Assembly (NCBI RefSeq): GCF_000003815.2
Contig: NC_049986.1
Location: 17,866,457-17,930,456 of the forward strand
Direction: 5' to 3'
Length of the DNA stretch: 64,000 bases
Source of the DNA: Branchiostoma floridae
Taxonomy: Eukaryota > Chordata > Leptocardii > Amphioxiformes > Branchiostomatidae
The notes under the pieces are model-generated. The model was not told the origin of the DNA and searched no databases. It worked only from the letters and a program-made list of their open reading frames with translations. The translations under genes and the position numbers were made by a program. This document shows positions 1,988-61,325 of this stretch, piece by piece (the stretch's first letter is position 1; each line of letters begins with the position of its first letter).

Positions 1988-4900
1988 CTGGAATAATAAT
2001 AAACATACTTGTATGATTATAGTATTTAACTTAGGATATAGGGAGATCAGGAGCATTCTTTTCCACAAGCAGTAGCTACTTATTTGGCTTACGTTTCAAT
2101 GTCTCTCTGAGGAAGGTGTCTGAGAGACATCGAAACATGAGCAAAGTAAGTACCTACTGCTTGTGGGAAAGTATTCTCCTATGTCCTATATTGAACATGA
2201 TGAAATTATTTTCGTAATATGTAACTTATATTCTACACATAATATATATTGATGTGTATGACCACTTGTATGTCAATTTTAAGCACTAGTACATGCTTCT
2301 ATTGGAGACAACACCCCCATGTTTCGATGCCCCTAAAGCTAAAATACCCCATCTTCTGACCCCCCCATCATTAGGGTTTATAGGGTTATGATATAGGGAG
2401 TTGTTGAAACATGTGAGAAGAGGTTTGAAGAATTCTATCTAAAGAGCCTCTGAGCATCTTTATCGAAACATTTTTCGAAAGTGTTTTTGAGAACGCTTGG
2501 AATCGTTTGTGAAAACGCGAGTTAAGCGGGCCTTACCGTGCAGCCACGGTCGGGTAGGTTCCGTCCTTGGTTCCGATGACCTTGAGCTGGTAGGTCGTCT
2601 GGCGGGTGATGTTGTGGATCAGGTCGTTCCCCAGCCAGAAGGACTCCCAGCCCTCCAGCTTGAAGCCCTTCTTGAAGATGTACCAGGGCTCATGGTAGAG
2701 GCCTGGATTGAATCCCTGGTGAACATGAATACAAATTGAGCATTTTTTTTAAATTATATATTGTACATTGTTTGTTTGCTTATTTCTTTAATCAGAGAAA
2801 TACATATCGCCTTCAATCAGTGTTTTTCAATGTGGCTCTGGGGGGAATCCCCAGACATTAGCGAAATCAATCTTAGCAAAAAATCAAACTTAGCAAATAA
2901 TAGTCAGATTACAAAATCACAACAATCCTGTTTCAACATCCAAACTCACAAGGCCAAGGAAAAATATGTTGTGTTCCCTGTTACCTGACTAACCCTAGCC
3001 TTCTTTGGGTTGTTGATCCCCGAAAAGGGACATGAGAAATGAATGATAAAGTTGTTGAATCTAGTAAACCTACTTATACTACTAGTAAATCTCTAATGTA
3101 CATACATGTATGTTGTATAACTACCCTATTTTTTCCAGGACTATGATCCAAAACACCAATTTTTTCAGGCCTAGTGTTTAGTAACCAAGCCATTACTAGG
3201 TGTCTGGTTCAACTTGTTTTGATCTCAACATCCAGACATGAATATCTCTTCTGTTGCTGTAAGTGTTAGTTTTAGTGCTACTTAGTGTGTATGGTGTTCC
3301 TGTCCTTACTTCAGTGTTCTCTGTAAGGCATTACGTACAATTTTGTTTTAGGTGTTTCTGCGTCATGTATTCGTAATTGTTTATTAATGTATATACATAT
3401 ATTTCTGTATTCACCATGTAACAAGTTGTAAAATCAGTGATATTCAGTTTGTTTTTTTACTGACTGCGATGCTGATTGTTTTTCTGAATAAACTATGAAT
3501 AAACTATAAACTATGAAACATTAGATTGGTGAATAAATAGTGCTGGAATTCACAACCATGAGTGCTGGCTACCTTGCGAGCATGGATGACAGTCCATCCC
3601 CCCTCCTGGTCCATGTGGCAGTACACCTCCTGATTGGTGCGAGTACCCCTGGGCCGGATGAACCGTGGGCCGTCCTCAATGACGCCTGCCATGTACCAGT
3701 CAGCACAGTCCTCCTTTGCAACTGTGAAGGAGAGCAAACCAGTTACTTACGACATCACTCATGTAACGTTACCTGTAACTCAACAGGTAATGCTAGCTCA
3801 CCTTTATCTGTGGGGTAACCTGTATTCATTTTACATGTTTTTTCAAAAAACAGTTTTAAGGGATATCTAGTCAATGGTTTTACTTTGCAATGCTTTGAAA
3901 TATTGCAGTTTGAAACCACCATCTGTCGACTTGATATCCCTAAGTACCCTGTTTTGAAAAACAACGAATATAGGTTACCCTGCAGATAAAGGTGAAGTGG
4001 CAATAACATAATGTATGCCAACTTTTCTTCCAATTAGTGCATTGGTCCGAACAAGGATGGTTTGACTTACAGGTGAAGGTATGATCAGTGTACTTGGTAA
4101 GGTTTCACTGTTTTCCTATTCAAAGATGTTAGACATGAATGAAACTAAATTTCAGCCAGAACAAGGACGGTTTGACATAGTGTCTGTTATAACAAACTGT
4201 TATAACGTTATGGAGCATAATTTGCCAGGGGAGTTTCGCTAGCCAGCGGGGAGACATTAACCTTAGCGCGGACTGACTCTCCTGGCCAATTTCCAAAGTT
4301 CTACTCTCCCTGTACCCCTCTAAGGCTTAGGTCCCAATTTCCAGGGGCCCAGTCGGGTAGCTTTCAGAAACAAAAAATATGATATAAAAGGCAGCAGAAC
4401 ACACAGAACCTACAAAAATATTCATGAGCATTACGCTAGTTCACCTTTATCCGCATGGTAACCTTCATCCATTGTATATAAAAAAATTTTTAGGTATATC
4501 ACGTTGACAACAAGTGTTGCTATGAATGCTATGAAAATATTGCAAATTGAAACCAACGTTTGTCGACTAGATATCCCTCAATATCTCGTTTTTTTAAAAG
4601 AACGGAAATAGATTACCATGTGAATAAAGGTGAACTATTGTTAATTTGTGCGCATTCCTTGGTAAACACTTTTTTTTTTCTATCCGCAAACATCCCAGCC
4701 GGCGCCCGGTTTGGAAATGGGACCTAGGCCTAACCCTTAAACTGCCAGAGTTTCAGCCCTATAAAATGCTATAAGTGCCAGGGTTGGCTGCTGACCTCCA
4801 AAAAGAACCCCCCGAACAAGGCCGAAGTCCCTATTTCCGGGGTTCGTGCACTACGCGCGCGCAAAGCTGCTACTTTGGGGGAATACACTATCCCGGACAT

Positions 4901-24270: not shown

Positions 24271-24602
24271 GCTAGTCAATGTCTAATTCTAGATTATTTG
24301 GTCTGTCCAGTAAAACTTTCTAGCATGTGTTTCCAACCTTCAAAATATCACACAGCACTCAAACTTCTGCAGATTTGTACTACAATACTAAAGCTTTGGT
24401 GTGAGTGTGTCCGTGCGTGCGTGTTTGTGTGTGTGTGTGTATACGTGCGTGTGTCCGTCTGTCTGTTTGGTAGTTGAATACGTCAAGAAAAAATCGTGGA
24501 TAGGTGTTTGTTTTATTGATTTGTTGGTATGTGTTGGCAAAATGAGGATAAAACTATATGAAGGGCCCCCAGCGGCTTTCCATGGTACAGCAGCGGAATT
24601 GT

Positions 24603-24951
24603 TGGTTCTATTATGCGATCTAAACACCTCCTGAAGAACACATCCTTAAAAAAACTGTTGTATGGAGATCTACCACCGTTATCTCAGGTCATACGAGAAA
24701 GAAGGCTGAGGTTTGCAGGTCACGCATGGCGGAGTAAAGATGAGATCATTAGTGACGTTCTGCTGTGGACACCCAAACATGGTCATGCAAACAGAGGTAG
24801 ACCACGCAAAACATATGTACATCAACTTTGTGAAGACACTGGCTGCTCGGCTGAAGAACTGCCCAAGGCTATGGAGGATAGGGAAGGATGGAAGAAGAGA
24901 GTCATGTCCATCCGTGCAACCAGCATGCCCGGATAATGATGATGATGATGC
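24603..24951 (+). pseudogene. 3' remnant of a non-LTR retrotransposon (LINE) ORF with ATG-repeat tail
   Basis: About 100 codons encode LLYGDLPPLSQVIRERRLR, FAGHAWRSKDEIISDVLLW, then NRGRPRKTYVHQL and EDREGWKKRV. This is the familiar C-terminal tail of LINE reverse transcriptase polyproteins (RRLRF-GH, GRPR, W-x-x-R-V blocks). It stops at TAA (24936) and is followed directly by an ATGATGATG tail, as in several LINE clades. No endonuclease or RT domain precedes it, so it is a 5'-truncated dead copy. Confidence 0.85.
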
Positions 24952-25578: not shown

Positions 25579-26377
25579 ATGCTAAGTCCACGGACTAAGA
25601 TCAGTGATCAAGCCAGAGGAGCCTCCGACGGATCACTGAGATCCCCAAGACGTCAGACACAACGGACGAGAGAGACTTCTCCAAGGGCCCCTTCTCCTTC
25701 TGTGGCACAAGAACAAAGGAGACACGTCACATCGCATTCAAGACCTGTGTCTGCCAAACGGCCAAGCTCTGGATATGCGAGACGAACTAAGACAAAGGCT
25801 AGACCGTCGAGCAGTCGTAGTACTGCCAACCACAAGAGAAAAACAAAGACCTCTTCCGACGGAAATGCCTCGACGAGAGCCGAAAGTCCACGAATCTCAA
25901 ACGACAAGCTGACAGTGCCTGACCAATCTAAAGTTTCTCCAAGATCTGGAAGTGAAAGGCCCAAACTTCTCCCGTACATGTTCACTCAGGAGTGTGGAAT
26001 ATCGCCTGATCTTCATGATTTACAATATCTCCCTTCCCCTAGCCCAAGAGACAACAAGACCGAGGAGAAAGCTCCAGCTCAAAACAAGATCTCTCCTCGG
26101 CTACGGCATCATCGCACGTCCTCCAAAACGTCGACAACATCGCAAGGAAAAGGGCGAGAGAAAACCACCCAACGACACGTTCACTACTTTCACAAGTTGG
26201 GCTCCATACCGTGCCCCGCCGGTCTGACCATAACGGACAGTCTATCCCCACCCCGACATCTCAGTCCCTGCTGTACCGCAGACGAACCAGTAGACGAACC
26301 GTGTGGTCTCGTCAAGGACTTGATAACCCCGCTGCGGCGATACCCGTACTGTGAAGTATGCTGTGGGAACGGCACTG
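25579..26377 (+). CDS. Exon 1 of paralogue A: long disordered basic region
   Basis: The ATG has A at -3. It encodes many SP and RSP motifs (SPRRQTQRTRETSPR, RAPSPSVAQEQ) and no hydrophobic segment, so it is probably intrinsically disordered and possibly phosphorylated by proline-directed kinases. The short conserved blocks shared with paralogue B are LLPYM, SPRD and the CxVCC end. If the intron is retained, translation stops three codons later at 26383-26385. Confidence 0.85.
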
Positions 26378-29300
26378 GTAACTAAATTCAATAATTGATT
26401 TGGTTTGTTTTATTCGGCTGTATAAAAAGACATACGGCCAGGGCTACCCAACTAGACAGAGGCTATCACAAATGGCTAGCCCTGGTAACTGCACAATAAG
26501 CGATACAAACGGTTACAATGCACAGTAGATGCGTTTACAGATACACAGTTTTACGTACTAAGATATACAAGTAATACAGGGAAATATTTTCGGTCTTTTC
26601 AATCGGCCATTGTTTGCTTACTGAAATAACAACAGTACTGTCTGTGATAAAAGCACTGTTCCAAGCAGATGTAGGGTCTGGCTCAGTGTATCGGGGTAGG
26701 GCGAAAACGGGAATAAAATTGGAAATGTCAAATACGACTGAAATACTAAACCGAGCCTTACGTCTTCTTGGAGATTACAGGTGACAAACTAACTTGATTT
26801 GATACTGACATCTGCTATGTTGTATCTCTATATCTTTATAAGGTTAAGGTTACAATGTCACTTTGTGTAGAAACTGGAAGCACATAAATCTGTCACCAAC
26901 ATGCATCATCATTTCCTATTAGAATATCACTCTACCTATTGGCAGTAACAATTGACCTAATGCCTGCCTGCACATCCCTGACTCAAACAAACAAACAAAC
27001 GTAACGTAACGATTCTCAAAGTCTCTCGACTCTCGACAAGGTAATGTACACTCTTATTGTTCAACAATGACGAAGAGGTCACTGGTCCATAACCACGTAA
27101 GAGTATAAAAGCCCACTTCTTCTCAGATTCCCTGGCCAGCCTCCAACAGCGTAAAGAGAGAAGAGAACATCGTGAGCAGCCCTGGACAGAGGACACGCCG
27201 GAATATGAGGACCTGCAGTGGAAAATAGGTCAGAATATCATCGTTCATGTCGACGTCTATCTTTAATCCACAAATAAAGATAGAAAGTACCAGACGAGCA
27301 CAAAAACATTTTAAAAAGTAGAATGAAGCATTTTGATGTCTACATAACCCTTAAAGAGGGGTTCACATGTGCGTATATATTCAAGTCCGTATGAGGTCTG
27401 TGTGGAGTTTTTAGCCTCTACCAGGTTCTTCAGGTCGCTAAGAAAATGCTAGTACTAGAAATTGGACAAATATTAATGCATAACATGCCAGAGGAGTTAG
27501 CTGGCCAAGTACTGGTTTGCGACCCAGCTGAATCGTTTGACATAATATCTGGCCATATATGGCAAATTTCTATTATTTTTTCAGCAACCTATGGAGCCTG
27601 GTAGAGGCTAAGACTTTCATACGGCATTATACGGACCTCATACGGACTTGAATATACATGTATACGCACGTGTGAACCCACCTTTAGTGTACACAATACC
27701 AGCATTGGATATCATATCTGGTTACAGCCGATGAACAGGCCACTTTGTTAAACTCGTTGTTTCGGCACAACACATTTCTGAGTAGCCAGCCATGAATGAG
27801 GTGTCGTGTAACAATTTATGCGCTAGATTATTCCCGGGTGACGAGATACGCCATGCCATTTCTGCATCGTGTTGTTGCGTTATCGTCTTGATATTTCATC
27901 CACTAGAGTGGCGACCTTGGTACGACCGCGCTGCGACCTTCGACTTGGCATTGCGCTATACGAATTTCACAAAAAGATCTTTATATGCTTTGTGTCTTTT
28001 GTTGTCTTTTCAGCAGTCACATTTTACATTTTGTATAATGGCCCAATCATAAATTCAGGGTTACACACATGTAATTTAGGTCGCAACCGTCCAATTAAAT
28101 AAATGGAATGGGGATATACAGCAGTATTATGCTTGAAGGAATTTGATAACGTTACGGTCTATTCGCTAGATAAATCCAACTACTTCCTAGGAGGTGATAA
28201 CACTTCACTTACAAGTGTACAAATAGATAAATATATCAAAGAATGTTTCAACCTTGTAACCAATAGTGTAAATGATATTCTAGACTCAACATGTTGAAAG
28301 ATAATTCTATTTTGTTTCCACAGTGAATGAGCTGCAGCTGAATATCGATAACTACAAGGGAGACATCGTTGACCTCCGCTGGAAGGCTGAACAGATCCAG
28401 GAGAGGGCGGACCTGGCCACACATGGCGCGCTCCCGCCGCCAAGGGTAGTGGTGAGTCAGTTCTGTGATAACACAGCTACACGGCAGCAGCAACATACAT
28501 TATTTTTAAGTTTACCTCTCCCCGTTTCTTCCACGTCCTCTTCGTATGATCCAAACAATAAAGGACATTGACCCGCTGTTTCAGTAGCAGGGTATATTTT
28601 ACAGGAAGGGGTTGCTACCTCTTCCCCCTTAACGTATTTTCAATTTTAACTCTCCCCGCTTCTTCCATGTCCTTTTTTAAAATTAAGGACATAGACCTGG
28701 ACCAGACGTTTGTTGTGGTTTGTGGTTTGTGTGTTCGGTGGTTTTCCTTAGCACTGCAACAGAACTACAGGTTTTTGTATTTTCGTATGTACGTTTGGGG
28801 GTTGGGATGGAAATCAGCTCTTTGCATATATTACAATGGAATTCTTGAAGCCTGAAAACTAGACGAGAAAGCAGGCTGAATCAGTATTCTCAGTGGATGA
28901 CTGAGTCATAGTGGTACAAACATGCCAACAATCTCGTCGATGAAAACACAGGGTCTTCGCTACGTGTTATTTATCACTACCCTGGGGCACTATTATGCAT
29001 AATGTTTGCGTGCTATTTTGTCTTCCGTTAACATAATAAACGTTTCTCAATGTCAAAATTTGACTATTCCTTTCTTCCTGTTGTATGTCATGCAATCATC
29101 TATGACCTTATTCTTTTATACAAAACAATTAATTTTGCCTGTAATAACAGCATACGGAAAACATCCAACCTTTGTCATGAAAACAGACGTAAACGTGTCA
29201 AATTTTATTGTTTGACCCGGGAAGTCAAGGACTTTAGGAAAGGTTCGCCTAGATTATAGTCACTTATTATCTAAACATTGAATTCCCAAGGGAGATATGA

Positions 29301-32300
29301 AATGAACCCCTGGTGTAGGTTTTATTTGTAGCAATCAGCTCCATAATAATGTCATGTCACTGTAGATAGTTTATTATCAAAACACAATGAGGTATCTTAA
29401 TTGATGCAAGGTTTTCTCTTAGGTCTAGAAATGCCCCTTGTTCAATATCTTGCCACTACTGTTGAACGAAAACGGCAGAATTTGTAAGCAAATGACATGT
29501 TTAAATACATTCATTTTCTAGTACAAGAAACTACTGCCCTGTTTATTCTTTACCAAACCATCCATATAATATGTGACTTGTCCCTTAAAGCTCTGTCCTA
29601 CCACTTGGTACATAATGTAATCACCACAGGATTGCAACAGCACCGAGTGAAATCATCAATGAAAGCTCCTTGGTATGCGGTATCACAAAGTCTACATGTA
29701 TGTGACTGTCCTTTCATGTGGTAAGACTTATACTATGTTGTTGCAGCTGATCTCCTCCTCCGTACCAAAAGCCAAGTTTCTGCCCCTGACCGTAAAGAGT
29801 GACCCCGCTGTTCTGGTGGTCTCCTATGTAAGTATCTCAAAGTTTCGGTATCGAATCCCTGATCAATTCAAGTGCTGTGCCCTTAGGATAACCACTATAC
29901 ACCTATTCCAGGAGACTCAGCAAAAGGGATGTGTTTGTTTGTTTGTTTATTGTTTATTTCAGGCACCATGGCCCATACACAGCTACAGTATAAACAACTT
30001 AAAAACAATAGTACCTAGCTTCGGTTAGTGACGTGCTGTCGGATTTAATGTACAACCCCGAAAGTCCAGGACTTGAAGGTGGTAACACCTCGAGCACGTT
30101 AAGAACCACACTTATCGAAAAGAGTAAAGGCCCATCTCGATATGAGTGGATTAAGCCTTACAATCTGGTCATATGCAGCATTCGTCTACTTTTGAAAACC
30201 AAACAAACATAACAAACAAACATGCAAGCAAAGACACTCCTAAGAACAATAACTAAAGAAAATAGAATACAACCCACAATAAGAGCGGTAAAAATTCAGG
30301 TCATGAAAATTAATAAGAAAAGTTTCAATTGAGATTTAAATGTTATCAACTATCAAATTGTTATATTGGCTTCTAATTCCTTTCATCTATTGCAGGACCA
30401 CCAGAATGACAGCTTTGACAAAATCCTGGGTAAGGTTTCCATCCTGTTTATCTGTTTTCAGTCTTTCTCATCCCTGACCCAATGGTCAAGGAACGTAACC
30501 ATATTTCAGTTTATACATTTATCCGTACATGTCACTTTTACCGCACAGTCTTGTCGAGTATGGCTTTATTGAAAGTTCAGGTCATCAGGTCAATGAACCC
30601 TAAAATCGCGCAATGATCGAGAAAGCTGTAACACCAGCCGTATTACTACCGAAAACGTTGTTTGTATCTCGCACACTCGTCGTCCGATCGATTTTCGCAC
30701 GATGCGACATGGGTATTATTACGTTCACCATCCGTACACCAGTCTCCTCCAGATACGCCACAAAGCAGTTACTCAAGCAACTGGATATGATTTTGGAAAT
30801 GGTCAGACGTTTCAGATAACATCCACTATCTTTTGTCAGTGACATCAAAGTGATCTGGAAGAAACTGGTCTTTTATACCCTAATTATGAATGCAAAAGAG
30901 ATGAAGACAATTTTGGGTGGAAACAATAGGAAACTAGATAAGACAAAAGTCAAACTGAAGTTGGCTTTGTCATAAGTGGAAGACGTCTTGAGGAAGGTGA
31001 GGGACGGACTGCGCTTTAAAACATCATCTGGGAGAGAGCACACATCTGGGTGCCAGGAGAGATGATTAGCAAAAGTGTCATCACTGAGCATCACATGGCC
31101 AGCCATGCGCCAGGAGGCACAATTGCCAAATCATATAGGTGGAAAACATGTCTGGTCGAAGGGCTTTTCTATACTGCCATTCACGCTTACTTATTCAATG
31201 TTCCTGTTATTCACAGGTGCTGTACAGAGCAAGTTGATCAGCTATTGTCCTGGGTGCAAGGCTAAATCTTTGCTTTTGTATATCAAGGTAAGACCCTAAA
31301 GGCTGCAATGAATTGATTTTCTCGAAGACATCCGCACGCATCGATTTTGCCAGTTTACAAGAGGGAGAAACGCTATCATGCTACACCATCATCTAAAACA
31401 GGACAACGCACTTCCGAAAAACAAAACAAGTATAGAAGTTGAATTTTACTTTGCTGCACCATCCCCATTTCTGCAAGGCAATGACTCTTTTCTGCCATTT
31501 TATTTTTCAAGCTAGTCTTTACAATTACCGCCGCCCCATATAGCGAAGTAATTGGCACCCTATATGTAGATACCAATCATTCGGCCAACAAAACAATCTG
31601 TCTTGAGCAACTATCTGGTCTCCGCAACTACTTTTAGGACAGACTACCTGAATGGCTGCTGAAACCAGGTTTGAATGTATGTCAAGGCCATTGGAATAAC
31701 ATTTTGTGGCCAGGTGTTCAACATTTTATCATGTAAAATAAAACGGTTCAGTAAAATATCAAAGTTATCAAGGGAAAGTGGACTATGTCATGTATCTCTA
31801 ACGATAGTTCACCTTTATTCGCGGGGTAATCTATATCCGTTGTACCTAAAAACAGGATATTGAGGGATATCACGTTGATGGACGGTGGTGTCAAATTGCT
31901 TTTTTTTCTCAATATGATGCAGTTTGAAACCTCCGTCCGTCAACTTGATATCCCGAAATACCCTGGATAACTATACAACGGATAAAGGTTACCCTGCGAA
32001 TAAAGGTGAACTAGCGTTACGTGTATACATGAATATAGGTGGCGCTTTTAAAGATTTTCATGGTGCTAACTGGGTTCATTACATGGCGTCAAAATATCGA
32101 TTCTTTTACACCGATCGGCGTTTTTAAAAGTCTTGAACTTCTTTATGTATTTGATTTGAATTCGATTTGAAGACGTTTGGACCTAACTGGGAGTGTTCGT
32201 GGTAGCTATAAGCTTACGATATATCCACATTTTTCCATTTTGGTAGGACATTCCCTATGACAGCCCAATGTGCAGTACCTCTCCCGTCCGCAGCTAGAAA

Positions 32301-34846
32301 AGTGACAAAGACGACCGTCAAAAAAGCGAAATTTCTGTCTTTCCGTGAATGGAGAAACAGTGAAAGACTCGCAAAGAGCTTTGAATTTTATAGGCTTATA
32401 TGGATTTCCTTTTACAAAAGTAACCTTTTAGAATAAAGAATGACATGCAATATCTAAGACATTTCACAAAGAAAATAATATCAGTGGGTCAAAAACGAAA
32501 TGTTCCTTACGCATTTTGCCAATTTTGAACGTGAATTGTTCACGTCCGGTAGATTGTAACGCTCAGACGGTGAACCACATACAAATTTGATTCGTATTGT
32601 TGTGAGACAAACTAACGTTAAACAACAGATAGTGTGTTTCTGTTTGATTGTCCATGCATTAATAGATCCAATATTTCTTTCAATATACCGCGAAGTGTGT
32701 GGATTACTTTGCAGTGCAATATAATCTTAGGCGCCAGGGAGAGCTGCTTGTTGGACTGAATTGGTGTTCTGATAACAAGACGACACAACCATATACCACG
32801 AAAGAACATGAAAATATGATTGTTTGTTTGTTATATCGCGTTGTGTGTCGCTCCAGTTTCGGGGCGTCTTGAATATGATATCCATAAAATCAAAGCTATG
32901 TGGCAGCTTTTGACTCGTACAGACGTAGAAAGTCTTCTTCATTGATATGATTAAACTTATAATGCAGCTTTTTTTTATTACTTAACCGAGTCCTTTCTTC
33001 TTCAGGGAGGCCCCGCTCATCTGTACCTGAAGAAAAACAAGGTGACAACAGTCGCCAAACTGAAGAAAGAAGGCAGTGAGGACATGGTTTGGTAAGAACA
33101 GATTATAACGTTAAACGTTTCAGTCCGTAAAGTACCAGGATGGATATGCGTAACAATCCGTTTCTTCTTATCGAAGTTTTAAACAAAAAGTGCAGCTAGA
33201 TGTGCAAAGGTTAGGTCGTTCAGTGTAACGTAACCCGAAGCTGCCGCGCCACTTGGCTGCGAAGCTGGTGTGAAATTCAATCATTACAACCCTTGCAGCG
33301 TCAATCAAGTAATTCATTTTGCGAAAACTTCTTCAGAACTGTTTTCATCACGTTGGTAAATTACTCATAGTGTAAGCTTAAGGTTCTTCAAAGACACAAC
33401 CAGAATTGTACTCACTTCCAACGTTTCGATGTCTATCAGAAACAGACCCAGTCATTCACCCTGATGATGATGTCAGATAGACATCGAAATGTTGGACACA
33501 GTGAGTACAATTCTGGTTGTGTCCTTGAAGAACCTTTCTATATATATGTGTGTGACACCGATTTTCCTTCTGTAGGTTCTGGAAGACACTGGGAAGTCTG
33601 ATGAGTAAACTGGAGCCTGACTCCACCGTCATACACATCATGGGCTGTAACGTCATGGGGTATCCCAAATATGTGGGCATTGATGTAAGTATTTGACTTC
33701 GATTTTTCCGATAGTTTCCTACCTTAATACGTTTTGTATCTGTGTTAGAAGCTATCAATAAACTGCACCAAATGCACCAGGCATTCGCAAAGGAACGCAA
33801 CCGGCGCCAATTGGTACAATTCGATTCGTCAACTAGAATTAACATTTACATTGCGAATTTGAAAAATTTCGCGATTCGCAAAAAAGCCAAAAGCTATGCA
33901 ATTTATATAAATATGCTCCGCAATGCATCATAAATAAACTCGCAAAGGTGGCACACATTCCTAGCGCATATTTTATCGCAGTCCAGTAACCAGCTTAAGT
34001 TGTTGTTCCACCTCTCTCCCCAGCTGTTTGAGTACTTACAGGAACTGATGAAGCCTTCCATTGTTAAATTCGAGGCTCCATTGGAGGTTTCCATTAAGGG
34101 TGAGTAGGACCGTTGTACTTTGCCATTGACCAAATATGTCAACAGACATAGGAATGCTATGTTTTTCTCAGAACGTTTATGAAGACCTCCGGGTGAAGAA
34201 TATATGCAAGGACAATGTAATATCTACTACTGGATAAGACTAAAAGATTATTTCCGTACTCTTCTTCAGCGTCACCCAGAATGATTTTTAGAATTCGTTC
34301 ATGTCCGAATCTTAATGCAGTTGTAGAGATTGTTTCTTGGAACTTTTAGAAATAGGAAATATCAAACTGAGATAACAGCATGGGGAGTAGGCTCTATATG
34401 GCATGGACGATAACATTACTGTCAAACCTGCCCAAGAACAGGTCACCATAGACAAGATTCGTAATGCTTATGTCCAGTGTCAAAGGAAAAAAAAGCTATC
34501 CAAGGCACCACCAAAAAGGTGGTCTTTATGTGTAGGTGATCACTTATACAGGCTTTACGTACTGTAGTTGAATGTGTGTCAAAACGGAAAGCATGTATTC
34601 ATATTTAAGCACAGTGTTTCTTCTCTCAAACTTTTTTCCTATCTTCTTTCATCTTCAGGTAACGCTATAATAGGGAGTTACTTTGACAGAAACAAGTACA
34701 AGCTGTGGAAGTCCCAAAAAAACTCCAACAACTTAGAAAAAGTGTTTGGGCTTCGATCTTCGACATCAACATCAAGAGCAACGTCGAGAGTTGCTATGGT
34801 ACCAACAATTACAAGCTGTGGAAGACGTACCGATACTCCATCTTAA
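25579..34846 (+). CDS. Paralogue A of an unrecognised family: SP-rich N-terminus plus DUF4347-like C-terminal domain (10 exons)
   Basis: Exons are 25579-26377, 27127-27228, 28324-28451, 29747-29827, 30396-30429, 31217-31287, 33006-33091, 33576-33684, 34024-34099 and 34659-34846. All introns are GT/AG and every phase matches paralogue B. The product is 557 residues. Residues 1-266 are basic and Ser/Pro-rich (RSPRR, RAPSPS, SPRSGS) with conserved LLPYM and a Cys-rich CEVCC end. Residues 267-343 contain HREQPWTED, DLQWK and NELQLNIDNYKGDIVDLRWK. Residues 344 on form the conserved domain: VLVVSYDHQNDSF, ISYCPGCKAKSLLLYIKGGP, HLYLKKNKVTT and VIHIMGCNVMGYPK. The layout (beta-strand, helix, strand with GG, helix, strand with GCNV) resembles the DUF4347 family, but the His of its SHG motif is absent. 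This is my inference; no function is claimed. The last exon is internally duplicated and its C-terminal 30 residues are probably frameshifted. Confidence 0.88.
26395..26480. repeat. Short dispersed repeat in intron 1 of paralogue A
   Basis: A block with CCAGGGCTACCCAACTAG shows inverted similarity to GCAGGCTAGTTGGGCAGCCC near 19265. The family is not recognised. Confidence 0.35.
27351..27694. mobile_element. Element with about 100-bp terminal inverted repeats
   Basis: The left end holds GGTTCACATGTGCGTATATA, TTCAAGTCCGTATGAGGTC and TTAGCCTCTACCAGG. The right end holds the inverses CCTGGTAGAGGCTAA, GACCTCATACGGACTTGAA and TACGCACGTGTGAACCCACC. It lies in intron 2 of paralogue A. Superfamily not determined. 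Confidence 0.75.
30040..30240 (+). mobile_element. SINE 3' part with AAAC-type tail
   Basis: It shares CACGTTAAGAACCAC, TATCGAAAAGA and GAGTGGATTAAGCCTTACA with the SINE at 12030-12430, and ends in AACCAAACAAACATAACAAAC. It lies in intron 4 of paralogue A. Confidence 0.65.
30762..30853. repeat. Dispersed repeat with AGTTACTCAAGCAACTGGAT
   Basis: The repeat continues GGTCAGACGTTTCAGATAAC and CTATCTTTTGTCAGTGACA. Other copies are at 34875-34955, 41553-41634 and, inverted, 38285-38400. All four lie within the two paralogous genes, but it is probably a general repeat. Confidence 0.75.
31799..32020. mobile_element. MITE, AGTTCACCTTTAT family
   Basis: Ends are TAACGATAGTTCACCTTTAT and ATAAAGGTGAACTAGCGTTA, with the inner block TTTGAAACCTCCGTCCGTCA. 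It lies in intron 6 of paralogue A. Confidence 0.85.
33373..33537. mobile_element. Palindromic element, GTTTCGATGTCTATCAGA type
   Basis: The left arm has AAGGTTCTTCAAAGACACAA and CCAGAATTGTACTCAC; the right arm has GTGAGTACAATTCTGG and TTGTGTCCTTGAAGAACCTT. The centre resembles the hairpin elements at 2034 and 59663. It ends about 39 bp before the exon at 33576. Confidence 0.8.
34659..34846 (+). CDS. Last exon of paralogue A: duplicated C-terminus read partly out of frame
   Basis: The first copy encodes GNAIIGSYFDRNKYKLWKS, then NNLEKVFGL, and aligns with the end of paralogue B (which stops right after VFGL). Here the frame continues for about 30 residues. Another frame of the same DNA (34770-34842) encodes NVESCYGTNNYKLWKTYRYS, a second copy of the exon. 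The continuation of that second copy (SNLDRVFGL) appears at 34965-34995 after an inserted repeat. Confidence 0.8.
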
Positions 34847-35284
34847 ATAGACCATATAGCAATAACTCAAGCGGCTACTGGATATGAGTTTGGAAATGGT
34901 CAGACGTTTCAGATAACATCTGTTATCTTTTGTCTTGACGTCAGACACTGAAGGGATCGTGTTGGAGAGTAACCTAGATAGAGTGTTCGGACTTTTATCT
35001 TCAACCTGTATATTTTTTCAAGTTGTTTTATCCAATCTTTATCAACTAGGTGTTGTTCGTATCTTGATAATAAAATCACGAATATTAGATCGATGACTTG
35101 TTGAAATGTCTGTCTTTCCTTGATTGATAAACTAGACTAAGTATAAAACTATAATAGTGTACTATAATCTTACAGAATAAAGACTACTATTGAAAACAAG
35201 CTTTCTAATGATACTCCATACTATATAATTGGTAAGTAACAACGGAGAAATGATCAAATTTACTTTTCCGAACTGTTTAGAGAG

Positions 35285-35321
<37 letters not shown>

Positions 35322-35336
35322 GCACAAACACACACA
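35285..35336. repeat. CA microsatellite
   Basis: About 50 bp of CA dinucleotides with CTCACG and CAAA interruptions. Confidence 0.95.
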
Positions 35337-35694
35337 CTCCCTGTCAGTAAGGCGAGGGGTCTGACGTGTTTGCACGTAAATGTGGAGGCTTTATGGCAGC
35401 TTGTCAAACATCGCCTTTGATGCAGGCCATAAATGACAGATTTGTGAACACTTGACATCAGATAAAGTTCACCGTGTCATTTACTGTGTTGTTTCTCTCC
35501 TTGTCGCCCCTATATACGTAAAGGTCAAGGTCTGACACACTAGAGTTTTATGGATGGCATTCACGGTGATACACGCAATGCTTCCAGTCTGTCCTATCGC
35601 CAAGACGAGATGTTCGGACCTTCAATGAACACAGCAAACCATTCTACAGTAAACACCATTAAAAACCTTTAACAGTATAATAGCAGTAAAGGGA

Positions 35695-35890
35695 AGGTGG
35701 CGTCAGATGGCAGAGTGGCTGGGCAAGCGGAGAGGAGATTGAGAGTTCAGGGGTTGATTATTGACACTTTTGGCTAGAAGTTGTGCCCTTGGGAAAGGCC
35801 CTTTACATGACTTCACCTAGGTGTAAAAGTGAGTACCCGAATTTGATTGCGGGGGATAAAATGCAATCAATGGCATTTCAAGTCATGAGG
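35695..35890 (+). mobile_element. tRNA-derived SINE
   Basis: The head carries AGATGGCAGAGTGGCTGGGC and a box B-like GAGAGTTCAGGGG; the body has GTTGTGCCCTTGGGAAAGGC and GTGTAAAAGTGAGTACC, shared with the SINE at 46985. Confidence 0.7.
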
Positions 35891-36677
35891 ACACAGACAC
35901 GAGGAAGGTGATTATCATCGTCTAGCTGATAATTTTTTCCTTTTCTTTATCTTAAAAGAAACATTCAGTTGATTGATGCAATATCTTTTAAAAGATCTCA
36001 AGACGATTCTTTCATTTTATGCTTTTATCAATGTTGATTCCTCTAACGTTAGTCAATTCGAAAGTCATAGAAGCTGTGAATGAAGAATCTATTGTTCTCT
36101 AAACCATACACTATATGTTTAGTCATTTGTTCAACCTTCCTGACCTCTTGAATTAATGAAGACAACTTTATTTTGGTAAACTTTATTTTTCTACATTATT
36201 ACTGATCATGACATCTTAAAATGGTTCTATTACATACTGTACAAGTCAGGGGTGTCAAAGATTGTTTTAAAAGAAATGATGAAGCTTGGAAGTTATAGCA
36301 ATTAGAGGGAAAGGAAAAGAAATGGCAACAGGGGTTGACATAAATTCTAACTCCCCCTGAAACATGCAAAATGTTCTAGACTAAAGACCATACAGTCTCA
36401 ATCACATAACAGATTTTTATACAGAACAAGTGAATAATATTATCAAAATTGACTATGTTGACTAACTTTTGACACAGTAACTGCTAATATAAAAGTATTA
36501 ACAATGTCATAATCTAAACAGTATACATTTCATTCATGAGATGCATAAATTCTGGTTTTCTTGACTGAACTTTCTGTAAAACTTAAACTACACATCTACA
36601 GACTTTCTCAGAGTTAACTTGTTAAGTTTTTTTTTATCCTACTGCTATGCAAACAATGATGATAATGATGCATGATA

Positions 36678-36898
36678 TAACGTTAGTTCACCTTTATCCT
36701 TGGGGTGACCTTTATCCGTTGTCTTTAAAAACAGCACATTGAGGAGTATTAAGTCTGCGGACAGTGCTTTCAAATTTGCAGTATTTTCAAAATGTTCTGA
36801 TTTGAAACCACTGTCTGGTGACTTCATATACCTAAATACGTTTTTTTCTTACAAACAACGAATATAGGTTACCCTCGGATAAAGGTGAACCAGCGTTA
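36678..36898. mobile_element. MITE, AGTTCACCTTTAT family
   Basis: Ends are TAACGTTAGTTCACCTTTAT and ATAAAGGTGAACCAGCGTTA, with inner GGGGTGACC / GGTTACCCT. It lies downstream of the stop of paralogue B, possibly in its 3' UTR. Confidence 0.85.
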
Positions 36899-37285
36899 CA
36901 TGTAAGTAACCTAAAGGTGTGACACTGACAGGTTGAAGGTAGCCTGGAGTCCAGCCTTATTGTGCTTTTAGTCGCTCCCCAAAGGTCCGCTTCTGCCAAT
37001 GTTGGTTTGGTGAAAGTAAACAAAAATGTTCAATTGAAGGCCTTATATGCTATGCTAGATATACTACAAACTTTTAAGGCAAGTTCTCACCAGTTTTTCT
37101 CTCCTGTAGATTGTGCTGTAAGTGGGTGTTTAAGTCTGCAATATTCAAATGGCTACAGGAGTCACATACATGCATCAAGAAAAACTGGCATATTATGGAT
37201 GAGAACTTGACTTTGTGGTATATTCAGCATAGTATAGTAGAGTTTTCAACAGGACCTTTTTGTTTCATTTTGCAACAGTTGAAGC

Positions 37286-40200
37286 TCAGAGTCCAAACAC
37301 CCTGTCCAGGTTGGAGTATCTCTGGGACTTCCACAGCTTGTACTTGTTGGTGTCAAAGTAACTGTTAATGACAGCATTACCTGTGTGGAAATCAAACATG
37401 GAAACAAAATCAGCATCATGAGAAAGTGGTAGGTTTTAGACAATTCATTTATCACATATTCAGGTACATGACTGTTATGATATATTCTACAGTGATTTAT
37501 GATCTTTTTTACTGAGTGTGCATTTATTGAAAAGGATACTTTTTGTAATATTTGATTTTCATCTCTGCTTAACATATCTTAAAGCAACCTTTACTACAAA
37601 ATGTCAAATGGTACTTCTGTCATTTTATCAAATGATTCTTCTTTCCACAGTTAAGTCAAGGCTTTCCCTTTGTAGAAAAAAGGATACTTACCCTCGATGG
37701 ACATTTCTAGTGGAGCCTCAAATCTAACAATGGATGGTTTCATCATCTCCTGCAAGCACTCAAACAACTAGGGGGGCAAAGGAAGAACTCTTTTTAAATC
37801 AAAGGCTACTCTATTTCAACACCATAAGTACTCCCTTAATCTTGAAATTAGCAAAGAACATCACTGTATGTACATTAGGAAGGAAGAGTTTGAAGATCAA
37901 ATGCCTCCATGAAATCTTAAGAGTTTCTTGTATGTGCTGTAAAATTGTAGTTCTTTAAGCATGCAAATACCTTTTCATTTAAATTTCAACGATTGACAAG
38001 TCTTCAACCAACCTAGAGATAGAAAAGATGTTTGGAATTTTGCAAAATTGGCAGAAAAATCCATTTACACCCTGAGTATATTATATACTATGTATCAGAA
38101 GAAAGGTTAAAAAATGTAGTGCAGACTATACTTACATCAATGCCCACATATTTAGGATACCCCATGACGTTACAGCCCATGATGTGTATGACTGTGGAGT
38201 CAGGCTCGAGTTTGCTCATCATGTTCCCTAGTGCCTTCCAGAAACTGTGTATGACAAATAGAAGGGAGTATCAACACTAAGCAAAGATATGACTCAGTGA
38301 CACTGACGAAAGATAGTGGATGCTATCTGAAATGTCTGACCTTTTCCAATATCATATTCAATTGCTTGAGTAACCGCTTTTTGGCATATCTTATTACCTG
38401 GATGTCTAATCTTCATTGAAGTATCAAGACACTAGTTCATCTTTATCTGTGGGGTAACCTACATTCGTTGTACCAGTTTGTACCATGTATGTAGTGCAAC
38501 CCGCCAATCAGCACCAAGGACAGTTATCACCAAATTGTGTGCAAGAAACAGGAGAGTATCAACTCAGGTTCACCTTTATCTGAGGGGTGACCTATATCTG
38601 TTGCATTAGTTTCTACAACGTATGTACTGCAACCAACCAATCAGCACCAAGGACAATTATCACCGCCCTTCCACTCAATGAAGTTGATGGACGGTGGTTT
38701 CAAATAACACTAGAACACTGCATGAAACATATAATGCAGTTTGAAAACATCATCTGTTGAATTGATATCCCTGCTTTTATATACAGCAGTTATAGGTTAC
38801 CCTGCATATAATGGTGTAATAACTAGTGTTATATCCAGGCAAAATTAATGCATGAAGATTAGGGCCCTCTCCCATATTGACCATCATTATCTGGATCACA
38901 AGCATTCTCAATGGACGTATTTCAAGGACACATTCAAGTAACATTCATTTGTTACAGCACAGTGGGAACAATCGATGTTTAGTAACTTGTAAATTGATAG
39001 GTCAAGTTCGTCTACACATCACAAGTTCCTTTAAAGTTCCAGAAGTTCGTTTTTTCTGTCCTTACCAAACCATGTCCCCATGGCCTCCTTTCTTCAGCTT
39101 GGCGACTGTCGTCACCTTGTTTTTCTTCAGGTACAAGTGGGCGGGACCTCCCTGGGGAACACATTCAAGATTTCAGAAGACTGAAAATTCATGGTGAGTG
39201 AATTTTGTCATGTTGAAAACAGTACAATACACATGTTGTGGCCCTCATATGTCATAAGACATAGACATTACATTAATACACTGAGTAGCTTGTGAATCTG
39301 AGACATGGAATACAGCATAAAATATCAAATATTGTCTTAACTATGTAACATGCATTGGCATAATACCGGTAGTAAGACTTATACCGGTAGATTAAAAATA
39401 CTGGAACTTAAAGAGATCTACACATGCAACAATAGTTATTTCTGAGCTGTGCACACTTCAGACATCTAGGTGTCCAATACATCATTTACAAAGCATCGAT
39501 AACAATGCATTCGAAGACAACAAGGCCAAAAGTTTTCAGTATCTTTTTCGGGGTAGGCAGCTCGTCGTGGGACGAACACACTGTCACATTCATTGCCAAA
39601 TTTATAGATCATAATTACACATGCTCACGGCACAAGACGAACATGATTCAACAACAATCTTGAATTTCTGTTGGTGACCTACAACTCATGTAAAAGTGTG
39701 AAGAACCGTTGCATAATAGCCCGGATCTACGACTGAATGGGCAAAATTGAACGTACGCAGCCATTTTCCCGCCATTTTTATATCTACGCTAGCAGTGAAG
39801 TGTTACGTCATAGCGGTTGTGACGGACAGAAGTTAAATGAAAATTCTTGACAGTATACGTCCGTTTTCTCATGACATTTTGTATGCTCATGCAGGTTTAT
39901 GTTTTATGCATTTACTGACAGAAAAGGAAGGAACATCAGAGGATGTATAAATGTACATAGCGGCAGTTAATTGTTCCGTGTTTCTTCCTACCGGTATTTG
40001 TTACCCCCTCCCAACCACGCGCCTGTTCGCCGTGTAATTCCGTGGCGTGTTACAATTACAATATTACGCTTTTAGCAGGACAAGAGTGGCAAAAAAGTTA
40101 CACAGAAGAAGTGGCAAGGGTAACCTATAACAGCAACATGTAAGTGGAGAAAATGATGCGTTGACAATTTGTCAAATCAGCATGGCTAGAGAAATCGTCG

Positions 40201-43200
40201 TAAACGTACCGGTATTATGATAATAGATGTTAACAGGCAGTCCAATCAGACAGTCTCTGCTGGAAGGCTCTCTGACTTTAAGCTTGTTCTAAATACTGAG
40301 GTAGTTGATTCCAGATATGGTCTGACACTGGAGTGTAAATTTCTTTGTGTTCAGGAACAGAATTGTGCAATTATGGATTCTATCATCACAGATGAGCAAC
40401 TTTAATTCAAATTTCATGACTTACTTGCATGTACATCAGCAATGACTTAGCCTTGCATCCTGGACAGTAGCTAGTCAACTTGCTCTGAATAGCACCTGTA
40501 AATGACATAACATTAAGCAGCTCATGATGAGAAATTGTTGTGGGAAGTGTGACAAGAATGTGTCTTGGAGAAATTTACAATATGCAATATCTATTGTGTT
40601 CAAACTCTGCAAACTGTCATTGAAAAACCAAAACAGAAATTTTGTTAAATCCTTATTTATTCAAATCACATTGATTTTATGATATAGTTCTATGTTCACA
40701 CAATGAAAACATGGTAACAAAGGCTGTACATTGCTGAGGATGCATTTTTCATAAGCTAAAAATTGCTCACAAAGTGTATAAGAAGAAAACAGATTTGAAG
40801 AGCTGAAAACTTACTCAGAATCTTTTCAAAGCTGTCGCTCTGGTGGTCCTGAAATAACAGATATTTCAAATACATATATAAATTTTATAATACATGTATT
40901 TACTAAAGCAATGGGATATGCTTTTGGAACAAATTTGCCTCTTTGACTTTTCTCATATCTACTGTATACTTGATATTTTCGGTTCTTATGTGAGAAATGT
41001 CTACAGTTATGAGCAAATATCTTGTTTTTCCAATGTACAAGACTGTTTCACCACAACAAGCTGCTAGCTGCCAAGAGGCCTGAAATCTAATAATTCTCAG
41101 TCTCATCAAGACCTTCCTACATACCAAATATCAATACAATCAATCCTGGCCTTCACAAGTTATTGCTGGTCTTATACAAACACACACACACAAACACGAC
41201 CACCACCCAAAATATAACCTTCTTGGTGAAGGTGATTAGAAACAAGTGATGAGTAGGATACTTACATAGGAGACCACCAAGACAGAAGGATCTTCCTTCA
41301 CAGTCAGGGGGAGAAACTTGGCCTTTGGTACAGTGGAGGAGACCAGCTGCAGGGAGAATGTACAAGAAGGTTAGAGTGAGAAGTGGTCTTGATATTTCTA
41401 GCTTTGAGGTTATATTCCACTGACCGTGATACAACAGACACTCCCAGCAGGTATGTGCAAATTCATTGTGCTTGGAAAGTTCCCCTAACTCATTTTCACA
41501 AGTACAGTGGACTGGAGCTAAACATCCCCTACGTCAACAAGCAGTTACTCAAGCAGCTAGATATGATTTTGGGAATGGTCAGACGTTTTAGATAGTATCC
41601 ACTATCTTTTGTCAGCGACACTGAAGAGATCTAAACAAAATTTGTCATTGGCTTGTTTGTTTGACCCTCTATTTATCAATGACAAGCTTAAATTGACCTG
41701 CAGGCTTTCTACTAAGGTTTCATTTTTCAGCATCCTTGAACATGATGTTCCACATTTTGTTGCACGTAAAACTTCATTCACATATTCTCATTCATAATTA
41801 ATAAATGACATACTACCAGGGCTGCTAAGGCATAACTAATAAGTCTATTGTTCACCTTTTATATGTATTTATTGTCAGTTAAATTACTTGTTTGAATTTC
41901 ACGATTCATCTGCCCTCGATCACCCTTTCATTCTTCAAAGTATGAGTTGATTTTTAAGAATCCTGATACTTTTTCTAAGGAATGGAAATGGTATATCCTG
42001 TATTTTATGACTAATCTTTACTCTATGACATGTTTAAGAATACCAGAAAAGAAAATTTGGGCTCGTCAGAAAAACTACAATGATTGTAAATTTTCAAAGT
42101 TTCATGTTTTTAAGACAAGATCGTCTTTATGCCAGTGAATCCTTAAAAAAATTGTTGACTCTCTTGAGTTAAAGAAGAAAATGTGATTTGCTCACAACTG
42201 CTTTCTATGGTAAGATTGATATTTTCTGATCCAGATGTGGTCACAAACAAGACAAATTGTCTGCCTCTCTCAACAGACATGCTGAACAAAAGAATTATGT
42301 CAAAGATAATTGCATGAGGTACATTGTGAAAAGAATTGTCAGAATTCTGACATTTGGGAAATATTTGTTATGTTCGCAAGGACAATGGCACATAGATTTG
42401 GCAGAACAGTGCCGCAGGGCGATAAGTATAGAATATATGTTACTGTATTGAGGGTTAACATGCAGGAATTTATCATTTCATTTTTTCATTGTGCCGGTAA
42501 AGTTCAGTAGGAAAAGAATTGATGGACACTATTCAGAGGAGTTCATGCACAGAATTTGGGCAAGTTTACAGACTAAAGATATCTGTGGGGGGAAACAGAC
42601 ACTGTTTTTTGCTCAGTACAAAATAAACCCTTTTTCCTTTATAAGAAGACAGGGAGTTTAAAGAAGGAAAACTATGTTTCTGTACTTTTTCACTCAAAAA
42701 CAACTGTTACATCGAAAAGTTAACAAATAATATTGAAAACCTGTAGCTTGGGGATCAAACTACATGTATACAACTACATATGAGTGTAGTGTTAGAATGG
42801 CATTAGCAAAACGCAACTTAGAATTTGTCTCTAATCATATAATAAGACAATTTGGTGCTTACCACAACTCTGGGAGGGGTGAGGAACCCGTGTGCAGCCA
42901 GAGCGGCTTTCTCCTCCAGCTGTTCTCCCTTCCATCGCAGACTGACAATGTCGTCCTGGTAACCATCTATGTTCAGCTGTAGCTCATTCCCTACATAAAC
43001 AGGACAAGTTAACCTTAAATAATGCTGGAAATATTCTGGACAATGAAATAATCAGCTGTAAATTTTGAATTTAGAGGCACATTTTAGCATAACGTTTATT
43101 GTATCATCATTCCATATTCAATGTGTTAATAAACAATGCAAAACAGACTAAGCTTCCATTATTAATTGGTATCACCAAGAAAAACACGCTAGCTTGATGT

Positions 43201-45282
43201 AAACAAATAAAATCAAACAGGCAGTCTTTCTACGGTATGTTGGTAATACATGAGGATACAATGATGTCACAGTTACACTCCCTTATTATTGTTATGCAAC
43301 AAAACAGAGTTGGTTCAACTTAATATGTAAAGAAATGACCAGAAATTGACTTGGGAGACCTATAAATTGACTAGAATTGAAAAAAAAGCAACAATTTCTC
43401 ATCCAAGTTGATTGTAAGACCTAGTTTTTACGTCATAGTTGTCTGTCTATGGGTTTGACGTCATCTTTCAGCTGAATGGGTAGAATTTCTTTGGACCAGC
43501 TCCAGTATTACTTAACAGCCGGGTTTTAAGTAATGTCCACAGGTCACGCACCTTTGGATAAGACTTAAAGATGGCCTTTTGTAAGGGTCTAAACTGATGC
43601 AACACAGCTATGTTTACGTCAATTACTAAAGGTGGCATCTCACTGCTCTTGGGGCACTGGTGTGGCACTGCAGGGCTTGAAAGATTATTTAACGCATTTC
43701 CTTTAACAAAGAATGTAGATATGATGATGTACATTTTTTTCTGGGAATCAGACACAATTCTTTTCCCTAGACCTAAGGCCAATTAATGCTTAATTTTGAC
43801 CTGAAAGGTCAGTTTTTACTCAGTTGGTAACTTTCAGAGTATAGATTTTATCTATAAATGACCATGATGATTTCTATTGTCATTTTCTTAAAAAAAGAAT
43901 GTAGATATGATGATATACAATCCTGTACTAACCTATTTTCCACTGCAGGTCTTCATGCTGTGGAGTGTCCTCTGTCCAGGGCTGCTCACGATGTTCTCTC
44001 CTTTCCTTACGATGCTGGAGGCTGACCAGAGAGTCTGAGGACAATAGACAACAACCATAATCTTAGACATTCCTGCAGTATAGATATTGAGTGATCTCAA
44101 TATATCCGGACTAGCTTGTCTAAGAGTTCACAAAGTGGCTGCCACAGTAGTTTTGTGCATAGTACAGTGGTTAGTGACCCTGCCTCTGGACCAAGAGGTT
44201 GACTGTTTGGAACAACAGGTATTTCAAAAGCTGTAAGCAGCTTTTCTCAAGACATCTGAGAGACGTTTTCAGAACATTGATATGACAATTATTCCTTGTA
44301 TGGTAAGCATTCCCTTGTAATTGTATTGTATGGTTGCATAAGTATGCATTAACCTATTGTGCACAATTCAGCATCTTCTGCTGTGCAAAAGATGCTGCAA
44401 TGTATTTTAGTGTTCATGCACTTCATAGATTGAACCTATAAATCAATTATTAATTACTGATAGCAAGACTTAGTCCTCCTCCCAAAAAACTGACAAAGAC
44501 AATATACAACCTAACAAGCACACTCTTGGAGGATGTCTCAAAAAGTCAAGGAAAACATGATTTTTGAGCATGTACATTTTGTATCAGCGCATCCTTTCAA
44601 AGACATTTCCTACCCGTAATGTTACACTGACAAGGACGCATTTAGGATCATGTTTCTTTTTACCTCCATAACAACAGCAGACAGTACAGTAGGTACGTTG
44701 TGAAGACTGCAGAGAATTCTCAAGGTGCAAACACTCCACATCTTCTGGAGTTAACTGCACTGATTTCTCCTCAGGAGGGATTACATGACAGTCAGGAGAG
44801 ACTTTGCTTTCCTCCGGAGTTTGTTCCTTGTCCTTGCTGTCCCTTGGGCTGACTGCAGTGAGGAACTTTGTCTCTGGAAGAGGAGACAAACTCCTGCACT
44901 CCGGTGTATCCATGTAGGGAAGCAGGTTTCTACATCCTAGCGAGGATTGAGATTGTTGAGGCATGGCTTGTTTGGCCTTTGCAATCCCCGGACTGGGAGA
45001 TCTAGGAGAAATAATCTTCACTGGGGAAGTCTTTGTCCTTCTGCTGAAGTGCACTGAACTCCGACAGCTTGGAAGTCCTGCCTTTGAGTTTGTTTGCTTC
45101 GTGCGTCCTCCTGGCCTCGGGCTTGGTGCACGTGGAGTTGCAGATTTTGGCCTTGAGCGCAACGAACCGCGCTTCCTTTGTTCTCGAACCACAAGCGGGG
45201 AAGACTTAGGAGAAAGATCCCTTGAGCGGGCCGCCTGACATCTTGGAGTAGGAGTTCTCGATCTTGCTTTAGAACTTGACAT
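37286..45282 (-). CDS. Paralogue B of the unrecognised family: SP-rich N-terminus plus DUF4347-like C-terminal domain (10 exons)
   Basis: Exons in transcript order are 45282-44664, 44034-43933, 42990-42863, 41346-41266, 40848-40815, 40495-40425, 39151-39066, 38244-38136, 37767-37692 and 37380-37286. Introns 2-9 flank exons of exactly the same length as in paralogue A (102,128,81,34,71,86,109,76). The product is 466 residues. The N-terminus (1-206) is basic and SP-rich (RSRTPTP, RSRDLSPKSSP, SPRSPSPG), with LLPYM and CTVCC. Next come HREQPWTED and NELQLNIDGYQDDIVSLRWK. The domain from about residue 284 has VLVVSYDHQSDSFEKIL, YCPGCKAKSLLMYMQGGP, HLYLKKNKVTTVAKLKK and VIHIMGCNVMGYPKYVGID, ending YSNLDRVFGL. 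The domain is far better conserved between A and B than the N-terminus, indicating selection on it. The start is the ATG at 45282; an upstream in-frame GTG is not a plausible start. Resemblance to DUF4347 is inference, and the expected SHG His is replaced (QGG). Confidence 0.9.
38285..38400. repeat. Inverted copy of the AGTTACTCAAGCAACTGGAT repeat
   Basis: On the minus strand it reads GCGGTTACTCAAGCAATTGA, then GGTCAGACATTTCAGATAGC and ACTATCTTTCGTCAGTGTCA. It lies next to the exon at 38136-38244 of paralogue B. Confidence 0.7.
38430..38832. mobile_element. One partial and one fuller MITE of the AGTTCACCTTTAT family
   Basis: AGTTCACCTTTATCTG starts a truncated copy near 38433. A second GGTTCACCTTTATCTG begins near 38569 and ends with AGGTTACCCTGCATATAATG near 38815. 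Both carry the inserted block CAATCAGCACCAAGGACA. Confidence 0.65.
41553..41634. repeat. Dispersed repeat copy in an intron of paralogue B
   Basis: CAGTTACTCAAGCAGCTAGAT, here split by one substitution, is followed by GGTCAGACGTTTTAGATAG and CTATCTTTTGTCAGCGACA; same family as 30762. Confidence 0.75.
44664..45282 (-). CDS. Exon 1 of paralogue B: disordered basic SP-rich region
   Basis: It encodes MSSSKARSRTPTPRCQ, RSRDLSPKSSPLVV, KSATPRAPSPRPGG and SPRSPSPGIAK. Composition is Ser, Pro, Arg and Lys rich without hydrophobic segments. It ends SQRTYCTVCCCYG before donor GTAAAA, a weaker donor. Confidence 0.85.
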
Positions 45283-60833: not shown

Positions 60834-61325
60834 CTAAGTCCTACCATCTGGCGTGAACCCCTCCCACTGTACCAAGTACTGCACCTTTCCGTCCGGTGTT
60901 ACCCTTCTCGCCAACACAGTGTACTTCTCCCCGCATGCCAACCTTCCTTCCGCCCCAAAATACGAGTTCACCGAAGCCCGGAGGTGCTCCATAGAAATCG
61001 CTGTATCTTTCATACTCTTGATCACCTCAGGTTCGACAATGCTTTCGTCCTCACTCTCGCTTGACGTCTCTACGTAAAGCTCCTTCTTGGACGGCCTTCC
61101 CCGCTTCCTACCCGTGCTCTTAAACTTCTTTTCCACGTTCTTCTTGGGGCGACCGCGCTTGTTTGGCTTCTTGCCCTTCGGAGAGAGGGACCTCCTGTTG
61201 GAGGGGGAGGTGGAGGGGTGGTGTCGGCTGGCCACCAGGTAGCTGCTGCCGGCTGAGGGAGGGATGCTGGAGCAGGAACTTACTGTGGACTCGGACACGG
61301 ACGGTGCACTGCTGGAGCCAACACT
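60834..61325 (-). CDS. Last exon: AT-hooks and chromodomain-like C-terminus
   Basis: The 163 codons run from [13 protein letters not shown] through [25 protein letters not shown] and [13 protein letters not shown] to [16 protein letters not shown] and TAG. Acceptor GGCACTCCAG, phase 0. Confidence 0.88.

Follow-up and report, generated by a model that had tools for sequence, protein, structure and literature searches.

A 64,000-nucleotide stretch of the Branchiostoma floridae genome (contig NC_049986.1, positions 17,866,457 to 17,930,456; hereafter the window, with position 1 as its first letter) contains two related protein-coding genes that face each other tail to tail, the interval 25579–45282 running from start codon to start codon. 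Exon-by-exon comparison of both strands yielded ten exons for each gene. Every intron is GT-AG, and the plus-strand gene forms a single open frame from ATG to stop. Each protein combines a basic N-terminus rich in serine, proline and arginine with a C-terminal domain of alpha/beta pattern that is a candidate relative of the DUF4347 family. The features of the pair are as follows.

25579–34846, plus strand: plus gene, ten exons, 557 residues
25579–26377, 27127–27228, 28324–28451, 29747–29827, 30396–30429, plus strand: exons 1–5 of the plus gene
31217–31287, 33006–33091, 33576–33684, 34024–34099, 34659–34846, plus strand: exons 6–10 of the plus gene
25579–26377, plus strand: exon 1, Ser/Pro/Arg-rich basic N-terminus, 13 SP/TP in 270 residues, YCEVCC near its end
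29747–34753, plus strand: C-terminal alpha/beta-patterned domain, exons 4–10 up to FGL, DUF4347-like candidate
37286–45282, minus strand: minus gene, ten exons, 466 residues
45282–44664, 44034–43933, 42990–42863, 41346–41266, 40848–40815, minus strand: exons 1–5 of the minus gene
40495–40425, 39151–39066, 38244–38136, 37767–37692, 37380–37286, minus strand: exons 6–10 of the minus gene
44664–45282, minus strand: exon 1, Ser/Pro/Arg-rich basic N-terminus, 16 SP/TP in 200 residues, YCTVCCC near its end
37286–41346, minus strand: C-terminal alpha/beta-patterned domain, exons 4–10, DUF4347-like candidate

The initial annotation of this DNA had described two convergent ten-exon genes with eight internal exons of identical length and phase, and the reconstruction agrees with it throughout: exons 2–9 measure 102, 128, 81, 34, 71, 86, 109 and 76 bases in both genes, with equal phases. 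The motifs that it quoted (VLVVSY, LLMYMQGGP/LLLYIKGGP, HLYL and VIHIMGCNVMG) were all found, with the single refinement that SFEKIL is the form of the minus gene and SFDKIL that of the plus gene. The N-termini contain 17% (minus) and 14% (plus) serine, are rich in proline and arginine, and carry a net positive charge. Part of exon 10 is repeated in degenerate form at 34754–34846, behind plus exon 10 (NNYKLWKTYRYS, read in a different frame), and the longer C-terminal tail of the plus protein results from reading through this partial copy.

The two proteins are 63% identical over their full length and 81% identical in the C-terminal domain. Nonsynonymous and synonymous divergence (dN and dS; Nei-Gojobori) are 0.088 and 0.766 in the domain (dN/dS 0.115), and 0.52 and 1.68 in exon 1 (dN/dS 0.31), matching the strong C-terminal and loose N-terminal conservation reported at the outset. 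These ratios imply that conservation in both parts exceeds chance, and both genes are under purifying selection. The longest identical runs, of 31 and 21 residues (MSKLEPDSTVIHIMGCNVMGYPKYVGIDLFE and GGPAHLYLKKNKVTTVAKLKK), are the Cys stretch and the GGP stretch, the latter after the putative His position, although their lengths are weak evidence by themselves (permutation 0.057 and 0.085). Synonymous divergence is lowest in exons 7 and 8 (dS 0.39 and 0.42; the remaining exons range from 0.57 to saturation), and exon 8 includes a 38-base identical run over GCNV. The regions of low dS (33003–33102 and 33574–33692, paired with 39154–39055 and 38246–38128) are flanked by introns that do not align. 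Gene conversion as a source of the high identity of exon 8 is not supported, because similarity stops within about 10 bases of the exon.

With few exceptions, nucleotide similarity between the genes extends no further than about 20 bases from an exon edge. One exception lies in intron 3, where 140 bases still align between the genes (28980–29117 and 42419–42288; 73% identity), representing an old repeat or else a conserved element. The remaining matches consist of dispersed repeats, 28 bases shared by the upstream regions of the two genes, and 52 bases over which the tail behind plus exon 10 resembles minus exon 10. A dispersed repeat of about 80–95 bases occurs at 30751–30844, 34852–34934 and 38298–38391, two of the copies being intronic, one in either gene, and the other lying 3' of the plus gene.

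A search of the 513,431,437-base genome (431 contigs) using a 190-residue query from the minus domain, at expectation values (E) up to 10, found no further copy: the 13 matches all fall at the two loci and comprise twelve exon matches and one degenerate partial exon 10 repeat. As far as this search can see, which proceeds exon by exon and scores the best candidates only, the genes constitute a two-copy family. No DUF4347 domain was detected in the same genome at E 0.001 by a search that takes no account of introns and in which one candidate was scored.

When the isolated domains were searched against Pfam, DUF4347 (PF14252) was the only family reported for either, with E 0.03 for the minus and 0.047 for the plus domain; the search admitted E up to 10, with program filters removing most matches above about 0.1. 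The alignments are nearly the same for the two paralogues (residues 41–159 of a 225-residue query to profile positions 1–100 of 164 for minus, residues 41–161 of a 226-residue query to positions 1–102 for plus), beginning at strand 1 and ending on GCNV. The weight of this match comes from the family having been named beforehand from the order of its motifs, from the length of about 120 residues and from the end on GCNV; the prior naming is not independent, since it was based on the same GCNV motif. With the full proteins, the minus sequence retained DUF4347 at 12.4 bits (E 0.14) beside an unrelated N-terminal DUF7808 at 0.11, and the plus protein gave no DUF4347 match. NCBIfam returned no match for the minus protein. 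The domain might instead belong to a different branch of the clan CD fold (CHAT-, caspase- or legumain-like, for instance), which is unlikely given that Pfam reports no family besides DUF4347 for the isolated domains.

Profile comparison was based on bacterial DUF4347 domains gathered from plasmids (L015–L022), from bacterial genomes (L023–L102, the best 80 of 578), and from further loci (L103–L107, and L108–L137 from the phylum of the cyanobacterium genome G001, source of L027). In that phylum, 76 of 200 genomes exceed the DUF4347 cut-off. Three alignments were assembled (A3, 8 rows; A5 and A6, 40 rows each), together with a separate model from 88 mostly proteobacterial domains. With hhalign, the animal pair aligned colinearly with all three profiles over 117–146 columns, one alignment being common to all, and the score was reached by 0, 1 and 1 of 150 column shuffles (A6, A5 and A3, default settings) or 0, 1 and 2 under a looser option. 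The reversed pair aligned over only 24–29 columns. The hhalign P falls as the DUF4347 alignment broadens, from 0.074 (A3) through 0.024 (A5) to 0.013 (A6); the reported probability is 0.8–3.3%. With the A5 hidden Markov model (HMM), the score of the pair was reached by 1 of 2000 window shuffles and by 5–6 of 2000 full shuffles.

Real proteins served as a further control, in the form of 738 chunks from the fetched loci. Ranked together with these chunks, the minus and plus domains came 2nd and 8th with A6, 2nd and 5th with A5, and 7th and 9th with the 88-domain model. Composition-adjusted glocal z-scores were 4.3–4.6 for minus and 2.8–3.8 for plus; among the 500 of 738 chunks scored in this way, one reached at least 3.7 and none at least 4.5. 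Chou-Fasman propensities laid on the DUF4347 strands and helices were equalled by 5 and 11 of the 738 chunks and by 5 and 8 of 600 shuffles. Most decoy tests place the pair in the best 1–2%, with the unadjusted glocal test as the exception. All of these tests depend on the same kind of alignment and do not count as independent evidence.

Other results weigh against a relationship with DUF4347. The Pfam scores, 14.5 and 13.9 bits, lie below the gathering cut-off of 24.6, and five of ten Pfam decoys (two reversed and eight shuffled in windows of ten) reached E 0.015–0.036 with families other than DUF4347, over 19–95 residues; since decoys reach comparable values, the DUF4347 E-value alone proves nothing. 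A minor pilin chain in the PDB scores E 0.0024 with the DUF4347 profile, which likewise shows that weak E-values mislead. Against the PDB, the animal domain alone found nothing and the pair found three matches, the best at E 0.97. The HMMs built here score the pair at only about 3–5.5 bits. The proteobacteria-heavy 88-domain set gave no useful hhalign match, and its HMM assigned the pair E 3.8 and 5.1 of about 1000, with 3 of 1000 shuffles above both. The unadjusted glocal score was exceeded by 152 (minus) and 255 (plus) of the 738 chunks; one decoy, at z 4.41, exceeds the value of 4.3 obtained for the minus domain with the same shuffle window, and six true DUF4347 members score far higher than the animal pair (z 18.8–24.5). 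Three of those six (L018, L020 and L022) fit the strand/helix test worse than the pair does, which marks that test as coarse. In reverse searches with the animal profile, 35 of 299 bacterial genomes had a match at E of 1 or less, the best being 0.0139, and 3 of 394 had one at E of 0.05 or less, the best being 0.0085. DUF4347 genes, which the 299-genome group commonly contains, did not stand out among these weak and unexamined matches. Finally, in the glocal alignments no residues of the pair can be matched with assurance to the C-terminal TG and W-x-L of DUF4347.

A rival reading is an unrelated orphan alpha/beta domain, Rossmann-like or animal-specific, in which strand-helix order and GCNV resemble DUF4347 by chance. 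The scores below threshold, the decoys of equal Pfam E-value, the weak reverse matches and the unadjusted glocal result all suit such a domain, as do three other weak matches in PHROGs (E 0.034–0.15) for one paralogue, the other having none. It is less easily reconciled with DUF4347 being the only Pfam family for both paralogues, with a colinear alignment shared by three profiles and reached by so few shuffles, or with a secondary-structure fit within the best 1–2% of decoys, and we regard it as possible but the less probable account. The homology to DUF4347 suggested by the initial annotation thus received partial support, in that the family stands alone in Pfam, the colinear alignment beats 148–150 of 150 shuffles and DUF4347 has a clan CD fold, whereas the scores below cut-off, the equal decoys and the weak reverse matches tell against it. 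Sequence alone does not prove the link. Relatives were also sought among viral contigs, where none of 35 pattern matches proved related by tblastn, and among plasmids, where the animal domain found two weak matches (E 1 and 7), one of which was inspected and dismissed.

The hhalign pairing assigns VVLV to the first strand of DUF4347, LVVSY to the second, SFEKILSAI to the first long helix, LLMYM to the strand that precedes the catalytic His, HLYL to the hairpin, the CFWKALGNMMSKL region to a long helix and VIHIMGCNV to the strand that carries the catalytic Cys. The codons at the two catalytic columns are as follows.

31285–31287, plus strand: Lys codon in the column of the DUF4347 catalytic His (hhalign), last codon of exon 6, at the splice junction before GGP
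40425–40427, minus strand: Gln345 codon in the column of the DUF4347 catalytic His (hhalign), last codon of exon 6
33646–33648, plus strand: Cys codon of GCNV, aligned with the DUF4347 Cys
38172–38174, minus strand: Cys398 codon of GCNV, aligned with the DUF4347 Cys

Among 123 bacterial rows, the Cys of the GC motif at the end of the fourth strand is present in all 123 and the His of the SHG loop after the third strand in 120, counts that include places fetched twice and 80 rows for which the scan pattern required the Cys. Both paralogues have the Cys and neither has the His, so that the aligned His-Cys dyad of a clan CD protease is absent; the position is Gln345 in the minus protein and, in the plus protein, Lys in the hhalign pairing or Tyr in glocal alignments, but never His. 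The three His-less bacterial rows (L018, L045 and L051) have Glu or Asn in its place and keep the Cys. Another His could in principle have taken over in an active clan CD cysteine protease, for example the invariant His350 of PAHLYL paired with Cys398: both are identical in the two paralogues and lie within the two longest invariant runs. However, His350 aligns with a variable position adjoining the strand after the His loop, and such a replacement appears very improbable.

The explanation that we favour, at a probability of about 0.5, is that an old tail-to-tail duplication produced two genes whose C-terminal domain is a highly diverged, DUF4347-like member of the caspase (clan CD) fold with a broken dyad. 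The strand-Cys loop (GCNV) would have been kept, and the His-Cys pair would be broken, with Gln or Lys standing where the catalytic His precedes GG. If the alignment is right, the broken dyad makes a binding or scaffold role the likeliest, with a putative module built around the old active-site pocket; the basic, Ser/Pro-rich and probably disordered N-terminus, a charged and phosphorylatable tail, would set its partners or location. The estimate is held down by the decoy that outscores the minus domain, by the failed unadjusted test and by the coarseness of the strand/helix test. Both the curated score and the His were examined, and the pair falls below the one and lacks the other, for which reason we treat the two domains as DUF4347-like candidates and do not file them as members of the family. 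More tentatively, and with somewhat less confidence than in the explanation above, the pair may represent a chordate family whose ancestor was a clan CD cysteine protease of the DUF4347 type. The catalytic His would have been lost, strong selection would have preserved the Cys loop, and the domain would have turned into a regulatory or scaffold module on a disordered, phosphorylatable tail. This would be a line of animal pseudoproteases separate from the caspases, perhaps from an ancient bacterial transfer. A true link would give a little-studied clan CD family a His-less branch in animals and supply two natural paralogues for asking what a caspase fold does without catalysis. Should it fail, the pair would still be a two-copy gene family under selection.

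Elsewhere in the window, the following features were recorded.

1735–2016 and 3507–3746, minus strand: pieces of a fibrinogen C-terminal domain gene (E 0.006, under the Pfam cut-off, and 1.1e-7, respectively)
24562–24933, plus strand: open frame shortly before the plus gene, without a Pfam match at E 0.01
60837–61436, minus strand: Polycomb-like MTF2 C-terminal domain (E 5.8e-26), with weak Chromo and AT-hook matches

The open frame at 24562–24933 resembles the end of a LINE-type (long interspersed nuclear element) reverse transcriptase gene.

For bacterial DUF4347, structure prediction carried out here and a solved relative indicate a caspase-like (clan CD) fold; the predicted model was matched to known chains by VIA-align, which realigns the best chains of Foldseek. 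The relative is Tce1 (PA0256, PDB 9qpe), a DUF4347 protein whose His186 and Cys240 are described as matching the dyad of the TcdB protease domain, and the same source, in print in 2026, presents Tce1 and Tce2 as providing a solved member and first activity data (PMC13323088). Tce1 differs from the animal pair in having the His-Cys dyad and in being bacterial type VI secretion cargo (PMC13323088). Bacterial DUF4347 domains in general resemble the pair in the order of strands and helices, in the GCxV Cys at the end of a strand and, in some members, in a GGP after the loop (SHGGPGSLQL in L108, MQGGPAHLYL in the pair). They differ in that the pair has Gln or Lys for the His, a score under the cut-off and no securely found C-terminal W-x-L, and many lie in frames of at least a thousand residues, in contrast to the 466 and 557 residues of the pair with its Ser/Pro-rich tail. 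That DUF4347 proteins are mostly bacterial, as initially stated, is a fair description, but annotations outside bacteria already exist, one for a green-alga protein and one for an animal, BGLB031575 of the snail Biomphalaria glabrata, a DUF4347 domain-containing protein of about 24.7 kDa listed among snail-released proteins (PMC6744689). The likeness of BGLB031575 to the pair is one of annotation. The bacterial pseudo-orthocaspases, described as caspase homologues with Tyr and Ser in place of the His-Cys pair (PMC6426788), belong to a different family and are bacterial, and parallel the candidate interpretation of the amphioxus domain in the loss of that pair.
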